DNA from: Spirogloea muscicola | Taxonomy: Eukaryota > Streptophyta > Zygnematophyceae > Spirogloeales > Spirogloeaceae | Reading direction: 5' to 3' | Length of the DNA: 34,615 nucleotides | Assembly: GCA_009602725.1 (NCBI GenBank) | Contig: WELB01000073.1 | Coordinates: 85,622 to 120,236 of the forward strand | Shown: positions 151 to 34,615 of the stretch, in pieces | Numbering within the stretch: position 1 is the first letter of the stretch | Layout: the number at the start of each line of letters is the position of its first letter | Notes under the pieces: model-generated | Seen by the model: the letters and a program-made list of their open reading frames with translations, nothing else | The model's database searches: none | What the model was told of the DNA's origin: nothing | Translations under genes and position numbers: made by a program

Positions 151-730
151 AGCAAGCGCGGCCAGATTAACTGGTGGCTGGGAGAGGCCAGCCCAAAAGA
201 ATGGACAAGGTCTGAAGGAGTCGGAGTGTTAGGACTGAGACAGCAGTAAGCCAACTCTCAGTAACCTCTCGTCAGTAGATGCAAATCTGAATAGCTAGCA
301 GGGCGGAAAGACGTCGCCCTGACGGAAGCCGGAGGCCGCCGCCAGAGCGCGGCCTGCGCGCAAGCTAGGGACCGCTGCAAAGAGAAAAGCGCGCCCATAG
401 AAAAGAGGGGCTGGCCAAGCCAGCCCAAAAAAGAATGGACAATGTCCGCTGCAAAGAGACGGCCAGGCGCATCCGGAAAACTTGGGCGAGGGACCCGGCG
501 ACATGGAAGCCAGACTGCTCGCCCTGCTGCCCGAAGAAGAAAGGGCTCGCCCATTCAGGATAGGGGCTGGAAAAGCAGCCCAAAAAAAACAAAGTACGAG
601 AAGGGGGCCAGGGGAAGCGTGAAGGAAAACAAGCACAGCAAGAAACAAAGCAGCTACGTATTACTCAGTAACCCCCTCAGGTCAGAGAAGCTAGGCTCCT
701 GGAAGTGGGTCCCCTGGCCAGAACCAGAGG
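151..730 (-). mobile_element. Nested LINE-like 3'-end remnants
   Basis: Two or more fragments of the window's retroelement family lie here in minus orientation. The 151-380 part is nearly identical to 34371-34612. It starts at the same sharp boundary (AGCAAGCGCGGCC on the plus strand) also seen at 33771 and, degraded, at 12011. Read on the minus strand, 555-258 ends in a frame closing on Y-S-D-L-H-L-L-T-R-G-Y and a stop, the family's conserved C-terminus. Upstream, 395-580 carries the conserved G-S-L-A-Q-V-F-R-M-R-L-A-V-S-L-Q-R stretch, interrupted by a short tail-only insertion. A second tail with the GGCTGG/CCAGCC hairpin lies at about 540-660. Its coding end at 665-720 matches 8547-8610. 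No reverse transcriptase domain is present. The element ends about 160 bases before the hydrolase start codon. Confidence 0.75.
372..458 (-). mobile_element. 61-bp tail-only insertion with 13-bp target-site duplication
   Basis: Bases 385-445 consist only of the 3' tail of the retroelement family: the GGCTGG/CCAGCC hairpin followed by the AAAGAATGGACAATGT motif. They are inserted in the middle of an older copy's coding part. The insertion is bracketed by a perfect 13-base direct repeat, CCGCTGCAAAGAG, at 372-384 and 446-458. Removing the insertion and one repeat rejoins the conserved frame (S-L-Q-R before, leucine- and alanine-rich continuation after). This is the signature of target-primed reverse transcription of a very short RNA or of an extreme 5' truncation. 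Confidence 0.7.
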
Positions 731-2948: not shown

Positions 2949-4605
2949 CACCTAAATAGGAAGCAATATGATACTGTATAATAAGAACAGCGAAATTTCC
3001 GTGTACTTATTTGACATGCTGGGAGGAAGTGCTATCATTAATAGTCTCACAGGTCAAAGGCTTGACCACCATTTATGCAACGTACTTCCTTTGGAGCTTT
3101 GGTGCCAACTTGAGATTGCTACAGACAAGCCACACTGTCGCCTCTCTTTGCCTCTCTGAAGGCCATGACAGAAGGCATCCGTACTGGATGTCATACTTGA
3201 CTCTTGCTTATGCGCTCACACATGACCTCAACTTGCGGAGATTGTTCTGTTGCTCTTGCTGACTTGCGAGAGTGTCACAAGCTGGCGTGGTAGTCGTAAT
3301 TCAATTTTCTGGAGTGCCTGCTTGAATTCATGCACTAGATTCGCCCAAGATGGCTTTCTTGATGTTGCACTGTTGGTGGACAACTCCTGCATTGCTCTAG
3401 CATTTCTCCCTGTCAACAGTAGTCAGAGTAACAGGCTTGAGATTAGGATTACTGGTCAATCGGGTTGAGTAATTGCTCTTTGGTATGTGCATTGCCAGTA
3501 TGAACAGTACAAGTTGGCTCCCCCTCACACACACGCAACCTAATATGCTCACATTCTCTATCCTACTGCAGTCTGCTGCAAACAAGCCCCTCGCTCCTCA
3601 GCCAGGAAGTCAGATAAGCAAGAGGCTCGGGCTTCTAACCTGATTGGCATTCTGCAGCAACTGCACATATCCAACTTCAAGCGGCCTTCATGGCTCTTTT
3701 TAGTCCAATGGGACATTTAGGGCCCTCCTCATGCCTGATCAGGCCAAGACAGGACAAACATGGTGGTCACTGCTCGCCTATATCAGGATATGGCAATATA
3801 CTATGGTCTTCAGTGGGGTGTAACTTAGCAATAATTGACATACAAAGACAGTACAAGGGCTGTCGACCTAAAGCAGCTGCCTCGTCTTGCACAGAATGAC
3901 TTGCTAGATACAGGCTCACTGAGTGATAGGCCATGGAAATGGACTGACTTAGCCTTGACAATGCTCGTCCTCTGTCCGCACATCAAGGAGCACAGAGTCA
4001 ATATTGTACATTTCATCACGTAAGTGCCTCGCATCCATCTGCTGAATGGCTACAAAAGCAAGAGTGCATACAAATCAGATCGTTGTCAACCTGTTCAATA
4101 GACAAGGGTATGCTGGACAAATATTCGACTGTCTGTGTAACACACTCTCTTTCCTGCTTGCATTCTTTGTGCAGAAACTGGTCAACTAGGAGGCCTTTGT
4201 GATGCTGACTCTACCCGAGTGTCAAGTGCTCAGGTTGCTGGGCTCATGCATTCTAGTAGTTGCTCACAAGGTGCTTGCTCATAGGCCAACAGAACAGGCC
4301 CAACATCCTCGTTCAACGGCAGATGCACACCTAGAGCTTCAAGAACGAGGTTAATGTGTGCTTCTAATAGGCATCTGACGTCCACAGCTACGAAATCTTG
4401 TTCAGCCATAGCCTGACGTCCAGCGCGGTGAACTTTGGGACTTACACCAGAGCTGAAGGTTCAGGCTTAAGCATAGATGAAAGCCTCATCTGACTTGAAG
4501 GAAAGACCACACAAAGCTCCACTGACTGGAAAAACAGGCGGTGATGATGACCATTGCGGAGACATCACCTGGCAAAGACAGCACCTCCAGGACGATATGA
4601 GCACA
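2949..4605. other. Intergenic region, no gene seen
   Basis: This 1.6-kb stretch follows the hydrolase stop codon and precedes the 3' end of the small minus-strand gene. It contains only short open frames without recognisable motifs or convincing splice-linked exons. Presumably it holds the 3' untranslated regions of the two convergent genes. I see no repeat-family fragment in it. Confidence 0.5.
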
Positions 4606-11879: not shown

Positions 11880-12110
11880 CGCTTGTCCGCCCCTCCGGAC
11901 CTTGTTCAGCCCCTTTGGGCTGGCCTCTCACAGCGATCGTCTTCCTTGTGAAGTGCTGCTTTGCACCGCCCTCTTGGAAGAGCCACTGTGAGCTTCTTGG
12001 CCCCATATGATAAGGCGAGCACGGCCAGATTAACTGGTGGCTGGGAGAGGCCAGCCCAAAGCAATGGACAAGGTCTGAAGGAGCCGGAGTGGTAAGGACT
12101 GAGATATGAT
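11880..12110. mobile_element. Facing pair of retroelement 3' tails (inverted repeat)
   Basis: At 11896-11936 the plus strand reads a family tail (CCGGACCTTGTTCAGCCC, then TTTGGGCTGGCCTCTCACAG). At 12017-12090 the complementary orientation of the related tail appears (CTGGGAGAGGCCAGCCCAAA, then ATGGACAAGGTCTGAAGGAG). The two tails are in opposite orientations about 100 bases apart and form an imperfect inverted repeat. The right arm matches the copies at 151, 33771 and 34371, including its terminal boundary. Either two elements landed tail to tail, or this is a foldback derivative. Confidence 0.65.
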
Positions 12111-20600: not shown

Positions 20601-21540
20601 ATTGCTCGCTTACAGAGAAGAGGGGCTGGCAAATCCAGCCCAAAAAAGAATGGACAATGTCCAAAGCCAAAGAAAGAGGAGCCGGAAAAGGAGTACTCTA
20701 CAAAACACTGCAAAACACATGGACGATGCAGAGGGAAGCTCAGTACCCACGAGTGGGCAACATCAGGTCTGAGTAGCTCGCTGCAGGGAAAGAGGCACTC
20801 CGCCGAGACCCAGAGGCGGCGGCCACAGCACGGCCAGCTCACGTGTGGACGGCGTGAGCAAGGGATCGTTGAAGCGACACCGTCAGGCGCATGCGGAAGA
20901 CTTGGGCGAGCGAACCGGCGGCGTTGAAGCCGGGCATCGCCCCTGGCAGACACGGCCGCCGGTCAATGGCCTGGCGGGCAAGCCGCTGAAGGAGATCCAG
21001 CCAGCGGCTGCCAAAAGCCCCGTGTACATCCATCGCCAGGGCCGCGAATTCATCAACCGGGTGATCAGCATAATTTCGCTCCTTGCCCCGGGCCGCCAGG
21101 CCGACCGCGTGCCCTGCAAACGACGCGGATCTGGTGGGATTGGCGGAGTCGATGCAGTCAGTTGTCACCACATCGGCGATGATGCGGGGACAGCCGCCTG
21201 GCGGGATGAAGAAAGTGCTCGCCCGTAGAGGAGGAGCTAGCAAAGCCAGCCTACAAAAGAATGGACAATGTTCGAAGCCCTAGAAAGAGGAGCCGATGGC
21301 CACCAGGTCGGTGCGTCGTGTATGGGGCTGGCCGTCCTCGCCCAGCTGGATGGGCATTGTTGAGGAGTTCTCCACAGCCACCTTGAAGCCAGCCTCCATG
21401 AACACCCCCTGCATACCATCTCGCAGGAGATCGTGGGAAGCGGCCCGCTCGCCCCCGTGTGCGCAACGGAGCATATGCGCAGCCAGCTCCGCAGGTTCAG
21501 CGTGACGGGCACCGCACTCGCACTGAGTGACGCCCATCGG
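20600..21540 (-). mobile_element. LINE-like 3' end with endonuclease-like domain, minus orientation
   Basis: This is the longest contiguous copy of the family's C-terminal coding part. On the minus strand, 21540-21290 encodes C-E-C-G-A-R-H, A-H-M-L-R-C-A-H-G-G, H-D-L-L-R-D, E-A-G-F-K-V-A-V-E-N and R-R-T-D-L-V-A. The frame is broken by a tail-only insertion at about 21206-21295 and resumes at 21205 with I-I-A-D-V-V-T-T-D, later G-S-L-A-Q-V-F-R-M-R-L-T-V-S-L-Q-R. The tail with the hairpin at 20623-20641 follows. The Cys/His cluster followed by E, R-x-D and D-V-V-x-T-D/E fits the CCHC plus PD-(D/E)XK endonuclease arrangement at the C-terminus of some site-specific LINEs. That is inference from motifs. 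No reverse transcriptase is present. Confidence 0.7.
21206..21295 (-). mobile_element. Tail-only insertion inside an older element copy
   Basis: These roughly 90 bases match the tail at 26158-26246: AAGTGCTCGCCC, the hairpin arms around GCTAGCAAAGCCAGCC, AAAAGAATGGACAATG and AAAGAGG. They separate two halves of the same coding domain, D-L-V-A on one side and I-I-A-D-V-V on the other. I could not identify a clear target-site duplication. Confidence 0.6.
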
Positions 21541-22059: not shown

Positions 22060-22280
22060 TTTCAATTTTATGCGAACCGCGCGCCTTTTCTCTCGCGTCT
22101 CGAGGGAAGGAGTGTGTATAAAGTGATGGAGGGCCTGTGTGGCCAAGTACAAAGGCAAGCACGTTAGCAGAGTATATTGAGGGGAGGAGCGAGAGCGAAC
22201 GCGACCGGAGCGCATCAAGTTAAGGGAGATTGTTTAAGCTCCTCCGAAGGGGGCGAGGACTGTGAAAGCCAGCCCAAATT
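22060..22280 (-). mobile_element. LINE-like tail fragments
   Basis: The segment 22095-22170 contains GGAGGGCCTGTGTGGCCAAG, shared with 32918-32945 and, inverted, with 20440-20470. At 22235-22290 a degraded second tail follows (GGGGGCGAGGACTGTGAAAG, then CCAGCCCAAATTGAAAG). Only tail sequence is recognisable. Confidence 0.55.
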
Positions 22281-25500: not shown

Positions 25501-25960
25501 CGATGGATGTACACGGGGCTTTCGGCAGCCGCTGACTGGATCTCCTTCAGCGGCTTGCCCGCCAGGCCATTGACCGGCGGCCGGGTCTGCCAGGGGCGAT
25601 GCCCGGCTTCAACGCCGCCGGTTCGCTCGCCCAAGTCTTCCGCATGCGCCTGGCGGTATCGCTTCAACGCTCCCTTGCCCACGCCGTCCACACGCGAGCA
25701 GGCCGTGCTATGGCCGCCGCCTCTGGGTCTCGGTGGAGTGCCTCTTTCCCTCCCTGCAGCGAGCTACTCAGACCTGATGTTGCTCACTCGTGGGTACTGA
25801 GCTTCCCTCTGCATCGTCTATGTGTTTTGCAGTGTTTTGTAATGTAGTCCTTTTCCCGGCTCCTCTTTCTTTGGCTTTGGACATTGTCCATTCTTTTTTG
25901 GGCTGGATTTGCCAGCCCCTCTTCTGTGTGGGCGAGCACTTTCTTCAAGAATGTACAAGG
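25496..25960 (+). mobile_element. LINE-like 3'-end remnant, plus orientation
   Basis: The plus strand encodes the coding end, first V-H-G-A-F-G-S-R-like sequence shared with 20930-21040, then G-F-N-A-A-G-S-L-A-Q-V-F-R-M-R-L-A-V-S-L-Q-R. It closes on S-D-L-M-L-L-T-R-G-Y with a stop at 25798-25800. The tail runs through GGACATTGTCCATTC and the hairpin at 25900-25918, ending with GGGCGAGCACTTTCTTCAAG. It is the inverted counterpart of 20600-21000 and of 26150-26360. Confidence 0.75.
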
Positions 25961-26149: not shown

Positions 26150-26360
26150 CCTGCTCAAAGAAAGAAAGTGCTCGCCCATAGAGAAGAGGGGCTGGCAAAG
26201 CCAGCCCAAAAAGAATGGACAATGTCCAAAGCCAAAGAAAGAGGTGCCGCATAGGATCACACCAGAAAACACTACAAAACACCAGACGATGCAGAGGGAA
26301 GTTCAGTGCCCGCGAGTGAGCAACATCAGGTCGGAGTTGCTCGCTGCTCCACCCTGGATC
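26150..26360 (-). mobile_element. LINE-like 3'-end remnant, minus orientation
   Basis: The segment contains the tail with the perfect hairpin GGGCTGGC/GCCAGCCC at 26189-26207, then the inverse of the coding end. The minus strand reads a terminus like S-D-L-M-L-L-T-R near 26320-26340. It is complementary to 25750-25955, giving arms of roughly 190 bases separated by about 190 bases. Confidence 0.7.
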
Positions 26361-33680: not shown

Positions 33681-34252
33681 ACAAACACACGGGTTGCTGG
33701 CCAACTTGTAGAAGGTGAAGGTGAAGAAACCAGCGCTTCCGAATGGACTGTGGCTGTGAAGGGGTGAAGAAGCAAGCGCGGCCAGATTGACTGGTGGCTA
33801 GGAGAGGCCAGCCCAAAGAGGCCAGCGGCAGCAGACAGACTAGCTGCCGGAAAACTATCCCCCTGACGAAAGCCGGAGGCCGCAGCGAGAGCACGGCCAG
33901 CACGCAGATGCAAGGCGTGGGCCCTGGACCGCTGGAGGGAGACGGACAAGCGCATACGATACACCTGAGCCCACGAGCCAGCGGCGTTGAAGTCAGCCGG
34001 CTCACCACGCCTACGGGACACAGCTTGGCGGACTGCGTGGCCCGCCTCCTCCGACGAGCGTTTGGCGCTCCTGGAATCAGAAGAGTCAGTCGTGACAACG
34101 TCGCCAAGGAGCCGAGGCCCCCCGCCGAGCGCGCTGGCGACGAGATCGGCGCGCCGGGTGTGGAGGCGGCCATCCGCCCCAGCGGTCGGAGGCATGATGC
34201 TGGTATTCTCGAGCGCCAGAGTGTAACCGGCCTCCACGAATATGCCAAACAT
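33086..34252 (-). pseudogene. 388-codon open frame spanning two retroelement copies
   Basis: The longest minus-strand frame here is not a single gene. Its upstream part (34252-33840) is the coding end of one copy (E-A-G-Y-T-L-A-L-E, R-R-A-D-L-V-A, G-D-V-V-T-T-D, G-S-W-A-Q-V-Y-R-M-R-L, ending F-P-A-A-S-L-S). It then reads through that copy's tail (33830-33680). It continues into a second, divergent copy of the same domain from about 33660. Both domain copies repeat the order E, R-x-D, D-V-V-x-T in one frame. This is best viewed as a chance in-frame fusion of two 5'-truncated elements. Confidence 0.7.
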
Positions 34253-34370
34253 GTGGGGTTGAGCTTAGAAGAAGTGGCACTCCAAATGGGGGCAAGGGCT
34301 GTGAAAAGCCAGCCCGAAAAAGAATTGACAAAGGTTCGAAGGGGCCAAATGATGGAGGGGCCTAAAAAGG
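33680..34370 (-). mobile_element. LINE-like 3'-end remnants, minus orientation
   Basis: This carries a coding end with tail (33771 boundary AGCAAGCGCGGCC, hairpin region 33795-33815) and, upstream, its domain up to about 34255. At 34262-34350 a different tail type follows (AAGTGGCACTCC, GGGGGCAAGGGCTGTGAAAA, CCAGCCCGAAAAAGAATTGA, GGTTCGAAGGGGCC), the inverse of 21836-21905. Several copies are therefore stacked head to tail. Confidence 0.7.
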
Positions 34371-34615
34371 AGCAAGCGCGGCCAGATTAACTGGTGGCTG
34401 GGAGAGGCCAGCCCAAAAGAATGGACAAGGTCTGAAGGAGTCGGAGTGCTAAGGACTGAGACAGCAGTAAGCGAACTCTCAGTAACCTCTCGTCAGTAGA
34501 TGCAAGTCTGAGTAGCTAGCAGGCGGAAAGACGTCGCCCTGACGGAAGCCGGAGGCCGCCGCCAGAGCGCGGCCTGCGCGCAAGTGGACCGCAAAAGCTA
34601 GGGACCGCTGCACAG
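34371..34615 (-). mobile_element. LINE-like 3' end, near-identical to the window start, cut by the window edge
   Basis: It begins at the shared boundary AGCAAGCGCGGCC and is nearly identical to 151-380, with a few substitutions and small indels (for example an extra stretch AGTGGACCGCAAA near 34583). The minus strand carries the conserved coding end, S-D-L-x-L-L-T-R-G-Y-like, at about 34484-34515. It continues beyond the window. Confidence 0.8.

Follow-up and report, generated by a model that had tools for sequence, protein, structure and literature searches.

How did a segment of only 61 bp, made of nothing but the 3' tail of a LINE, come to interrupt an older LINE copy, and does such a tail move as an independent short unit or is it the remnant of a much longer element? 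This question is raised by a locus of Spirogloea muscicola (contig WELB01000073.1, positions 85,622 to 120,236; "the window" in the following denotes this whole analysed stretch of 34,615 nucleotides). We were able to confirm the insert and its perfect 13-bp target-site duplication claimed in the initial annotation: exactly 61 bp (385-445, minus strand) separate two perfect copies of CCGCTGCAAAGAG at 372-384 and 446-458. The first two bases of the right copy (CC, 446-447) also continue the LINE sequence, representing a microhomology at the 5' junction, so that the insert measures 61-63 bp and the duplication 11-13 bp. The insert is the 3'-terminal tail of a 5'-truncated copy of the A-type LINE subfamily and is identical to the terminal 61 nucleotides of the 39 other exact copies scored. 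Its host is an older, likewise 5'-truncated LINE copy of another subfamily (151-520, minus strand, ends approximate and placed by eye), having the 3' tail GCAAGCGCGGCC... and a reading frame ending in ...LLTRGY*. Beside the host lies a third LINE 3' tail, a 5'-truncated copy of the GGGCTCGCCCATT...GGATAGGGGCTGG type (531-727, minus strand, ends also approximate and by eye). Excising the insert in silico and joining the flanks to the empty site places the upstream part of the host (...GSLAQVFRMRLAVSLQRSLA) and its end (...ASYSDLHLLTRGY*) in one frame, in which they do not lie with the insert present. The rejoining of the host frame proposed earlier holds for these two parts, but the approximately 20 residues between them have no match in the family and, already within the older copy, seem to lie out of frame.

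The whole-genome search (153 Mb, 471 contigs) yielded 891 candidates for the 61-bp unit, of which 40 were scored, all 40 being exact 61-mers. In the plus reading all of these have the same first base after unrelated flanks, the 30-nt flanks at the LINE 3' end being pairwise identical in at most 19 of 30 positions, and 39 of the 40 continue at the other end into the same LINE sequence, the window copy alone stopping there. A common end combined with a variable other end identifies the minus-strand reading as a LINE 3' end with the common end as its 3' terminus, supporting the LINE connection suggested from the window. The end of the LINE reading frame is found farther along the same sequence in one copy (L161). 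Copies were collected by their termini. The terminal 14-mer has 223 exact copies in the genome and its reversed control none; type A (AAAAGCGCGCCCATAGA) occurs 83 times genome-wide and type G (AAGAGCGCGCCCATAGA) 127 times. All 83 type-A occurrences were fetched and two with the same key (L047 and L086) merged, resulting in 82 analysed, and for type G the first 74 of the 127 in contig order were analysed. Five of 161 distinct fetched copies, starting with neither AAAA nor AAGA, were dropped before counting, 20 interrupted copies were excluded next, and L006 and one L091 copy were restored after inspection. Early length estimates from unrestricted local alignment ran into adjacent repeats and were replaced. 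The 156 analysed copies comprise 86 that are 5'-truncated, 20 interrupted by later insertions and 50 in which the LINE sequence reaches N or exceeds the retrieved stretch.

Among the 86 truncated copies the 5' ends are scattered, lying 21 to 330 nt from the 3' terminus. No 5' base is shared by more than three copies, and uniform placement gives at least three in 60% of trials (P 0.60). Copies shorter than 70 nt, referred to as short copies below, make up 28 of the 136 uninterrupted ones, and 12 of the 136 are shorter than 43 nt, thus being too short to contain the whole hairpin of the tail. Three of these 12 (L106, L107 and L141) are possibly interruptions that escaped recognition, as related copies carry an interruption at exactly this site. 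The clearest very short copy (L054) has 24-27 nt, i.e. about 25 bp, and a 12-bp duplication GGCAGATACGAA. Inserts of this size show that the inserted DNA need not include the hairpin. In a second tail family (GGGCTCGCCCATTGAGGATAGGGGCTGG), for which the first 20 of 185 copies in contig order were inspected by eye, four copies (L166, L171, L176 and L183) diverge from the family within about 80 nt and two (L172 and L174) are interrupted. The subfamily of the window copy is not alone in leaving very short pieces.

Target-site duplications were scored allowing one penalised mismatch, with a threshold of at least 7 and with flanks swapped among the 86 truncated copies as control. This threshold is reached by 28 of the 86 copies compared to 212 of 3,402 sampled swapped pairs (6.2%) and 482 of all 7,310 possible ones (6.6%). 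The window copy has the top score of the 86 copies, i.e. 14 (13 bp and one further matching base); 12 of the 7,310 swapped pairs score at least 14, those listed lying in repeated or purine-rich sequence, and its own flank scores at most 8 against the other 85 ends. Absence of flanking duplications from other tail-only copies, named in the initial annotation as a sign against an independent unit, was partly seen: eight of the 28 short copies reach the threshold, three of them in purine-only sequence, and 20 have no duplication scoring at least 7. Of 20 copies with a usable duplication, 12 show a 5'-junction microhomology of at least 2 nt with 1.25 expected, a count that is inflated because long duplications were selected; not counting the shared bases towards the duplication leaves 11 qualifying copies, four of which have such a microhomology with 0.7 expected. 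At the opposite junction, purines account for nearly all bases adjoining the LINE 3' end in the plus reading of the 156 copies, with G at position -1 in 78% and A at position -4 in 73%. Such a bias would point either to a 3' terminus that is pyrimidine-rich and variable or to a preference for certain targets. At the break of two copies (L111 and L049) the tail contains a segment that is inverted or folds back on itself (e.g. CAAGAATGCTTTGGCTTTGGACAATG in L111), a trace expected from twin priming or template switching.

The LINE itself can be described from longer relatives. Three copies with closely related tails contain single stop-to-stop frames of 1,433 aa (L162, 1170-5468), 1,418 aa (L163, 1185-5438) and 1,393 aa (L165, 1226-5404), which are uninterrupted and by eye very similar to each other; the family may have been active recently. 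We scanned the protein of L165 (P0001), alone of the three, against Pfam and found a reverse transcriptase domain (RVT_1, E-value 2.4e-13, residues 667-893), showing for one of the long relatives with a comparable 3' end that it encodes this enzyme. The type-A copy L161, taken at 6 kb, consists of N at 3,658 of 6,001 positions where the reverse transcriptase would lie, and the domain is thus known from the sister copy only. RVT_1 is the only match of the L165 protein in Pfam at E-values up to 1, no apurinic-type endonuclease domain and no match within the C-terminal 294 aa being found, and no PDB sequence matches it. Of the 18,296 rough candidates obtained with an 87-residue query from the C-terminus, 150 were scored and listed. 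By eye, the protein contains two finger-like motifs and endonuclease motifs, and near its end the series RADLV...ITDVV...KEKKY.

Taken together, we consider it very probable that the insert is an extreme 5'-truncated LINE copy, derived from an RNA ending in a structured tail and made by target-primed reverse transcription, since the 3' terminus is common to the copies and the 5' ends are scattered. This corresponds to the second of the two possibilities initially offered. According to this model, the LINE protein would bind the folded 3' tail of its own RNA and nick the host, here the older LINE copy; reverse transcription would be primed at the 3' end of the RNA and stop after about 61 nt, and the cDNA end would be joined to the far side of the staggered cut via the 2-nt CC match, presumably by end-joining, resulting in the 13-bp duplication. 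On the observed side of this mechanism are the common 3' end, the scattered 5' ends, the duplications, the junction microhomology and the near-full-length relatives, one of them with a reverse transcriptase. Counting against it, a duplication is recognisable in a minority of the truncated copies and of the short ones, and the 5' ends are mildly clustered (10-nt scan, p 0.016), truncation thus not being perfectly uniform. The window insert represents the short end of an ordinary process rather than a new mini-element. In this LINE family such very short pieces occur commonly; they can be interpreted as traces of reverse transcription that was aborted early, and are easily overlooked or mistaken for mini-elements.

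The mild clustering leads to the structure of the tail. The predicted fold of the sense RNA (-23.8 kcal/mol, z -3.71) consists of an inner hairpin with an 8-bp stem and a 3-nt loop (GGGCTGGC-CAA-GCCAGCCC; 408-426, minus strand) and a 7-bp outer stem with its predicted 3' arm AUGGGCG at 392-398 and its predicted 5' arm UGUCCAU at 435-441 (both minus strand), the 5' arm ending 57 nt from the 3' end. As the opposite strand folds with a similar z of -3.15, the fold alone does not reveal the strand. For covariation, 102 distinct complete tails were reduced to 27 differing by more than 5 edits, of which nine with inserts or missing parts were dropped, leaving 18; in the resulting alignment one family's tail (t2) is out of register. 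In the outer stem 83 of 102 cells are paired with three double-change cells in two pairs, the pairing being reached four times and the double changes 28 times in 500 permutations; slid versions of the stem have 39-61 paired cells, and one of them has six double changes. The inner stem has 123 of 143 cells paired and zero double changes, its pairing being reached by 500 of 500 permutations. Judged from these alignments the tails are conserved and covariation is weak, and we rejected covariation among the 18 tails as proof of the RNA fold. The window yielded no match to known RNA families or tRNAs.

Eleven of the 86 truncated copies end at 57-66 nt, a range that is suggestive in coinciding with the 5' boundary of the predicted outer stem (nt 57) or lying immediately beyond it. 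This raises the possibility of a truncation hot spot set by the tail, in which the enzyme would tend to dissociate from its template upon passing out of the folded tail with its bound protein, or in which 5'-degraded RNAs shielded by the bound protein would serve as templates, in both cases resulting in many inserts of 57-66 nt. The 10-nt scan against uniform ends mentioned above refers to this interval, which was, however, chosen after the fact; a 10-nt interval at 189-198 equally holds 11 copies and one at 160 holds 10, and 16 further truncated copies end earlier, at 21-54, before the tail domain is complete. Hence, we regard such a hot spot as unlikely. Rather improbable is also the more general notion of the folded 3' tail as a boundary with a stop or RNA protection just past it, according to which many inserts would be complete tail domains with a length of about 57-66 nt, scattering preformed binding sites of the LINE protein across the genome. 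Provided that the cluster immediately beyond the fold is genuine, the lengths of the inserts would indicate the point at which the enzyme releases its template.

A SINE-like origin would imply that the LINE mobilises in trans a discrete tail RNA of about 61 nt, arising by transcription or by processing. SINEs with LINE-derived tails carry the LINE tail at their 3' end, which the window insert has in common with them, and the insert holds the complete predicted fold of the tail. Six of the 86 truncated copies leave the family at 61-65 nt (L043, i.e. the window copy, L044, L056, L068, L102 and L118), one of them (L102) breaking at the same AATGT/CC as the window copy. However, the 5' ends form no single-base peak and equal clusters occur elsewhere, there is neither a fixed 5' end nor a discrete length, and the 12 pieces lacking a complete hairpin, three of them possibly interrupted copies, are shorter still. 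Neither strand of the 61 nt contains a match to the polymerase III consensus sequences used, one each for the A box and the B box of an internal SINE promoter, and the insert has no body of its own. In addition, the short copies mostly carry variants of the long copies: over the length compared, an exact match to the tail of one or more long copies exists for 9 of 12 short type-A and 10 of 16 short type-G copies, the remaining ones being 1-4 bases off the nearest long copy, and the tail of the window copy represents the commonest haplotype of long type-A copies (41 of 66 over 54 nt). Within these tail sequences no sign of a separate short lineage with its own variants was seen. We therefore rejected the SINE-like unit, for which the scattered 5' ends, the missing A and B boxes and the still shorter inserts without a hairpin leave very little probability; the idea of an independently moving tail, including the promoter and the fixed 5' end that were to be looked for, is not borne out.

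An origin other than the insert's own reverse transcription, i.e. gene conversion or a break repair in which a nearby LINE tail was copied as filler, would fit the host being itself a LINE copy and the many short copies lacking a clear duplication, such as the one inside another tail (L047), and is scarcely credible given the perfect 13-bp duplication of the window copy and the 3' end common to copies with unrelated flanks. The type-A tail of L047 and L086 is found at the same point of the hairpin of another family in two places, which would represent either a single insertion that was copied afterwards or two events joined where hairpin sequence is shared.

Extreme 5' truncation of a LINE, our preferred reading, can be compared to known systems. 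Human L1 carries a poly(A) tail, and in contrast to it the window LINE family has none, ends in a folded tail, leaves pieces down to about 25 bp and is suggested to use a different class of endonuclease. Dualen elements carry two endonuclease types, an apurinic-type one in addition to the restriction-like one, which distinguishes them from the L165 protein, in which no apurinic-type domain was found. For 5'-truncated human L1 insertions, PMC2912911 describes short target-site duplications, variable 5' ends and 5'-junction microhomology, as also observed here including the CC of the window copy. Copies of R2 are often 5'-truncated to different lengths according to PMC7650587. R2 and R2-like LINEs with a restriction-like endonuclease share with the window family the single long frame, the reverse transcriptase and a KX2KY motif following it (PMC7650587 and PMC5678591), the motif corresponding by eye to KEKKY after RADLV...ITDVV in the L165 protein. 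The knuckle CX2-3CX7-8HX4C given in PMC5678591 differs in spacing from CECGARHADPAELAAHMLRC, which by eye reads C-X1-C-X12-H-X3-C. The window family inserts at dispersed sites compared to the one rDNA site of R2, and its endonuclease is a candidate based on motifs recognised by eye. In R2-type elements a single ORF encodes zinc fingers at the N-terminus, followed by the reverse transcriptase and an endonuclease at the C-terminus. Dualen LINEs are reported in green algae (PMC8226300). Nothing in the literature searched was recognised as the window element, tail-only inserts as such lying outside the scope of this search.

Elsewhere in the window, a hairpin-like pattern has 19 matches on both strands with up to 3 mismatches compared to 2.8 expected. 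Further LINE tails with a similar hairpin were located by eye at 12015-12110, 20610-20700, 21205-21300, 22240-22280, 25850-25945, 26160-26255, 33768-33815 and 34370-34460, the one at about 33768-33815 possibly being another tail-only insert. A reading frame at 6703-8007 matches glycosyltransferase family 92 with an E-value of 2.5e-30.
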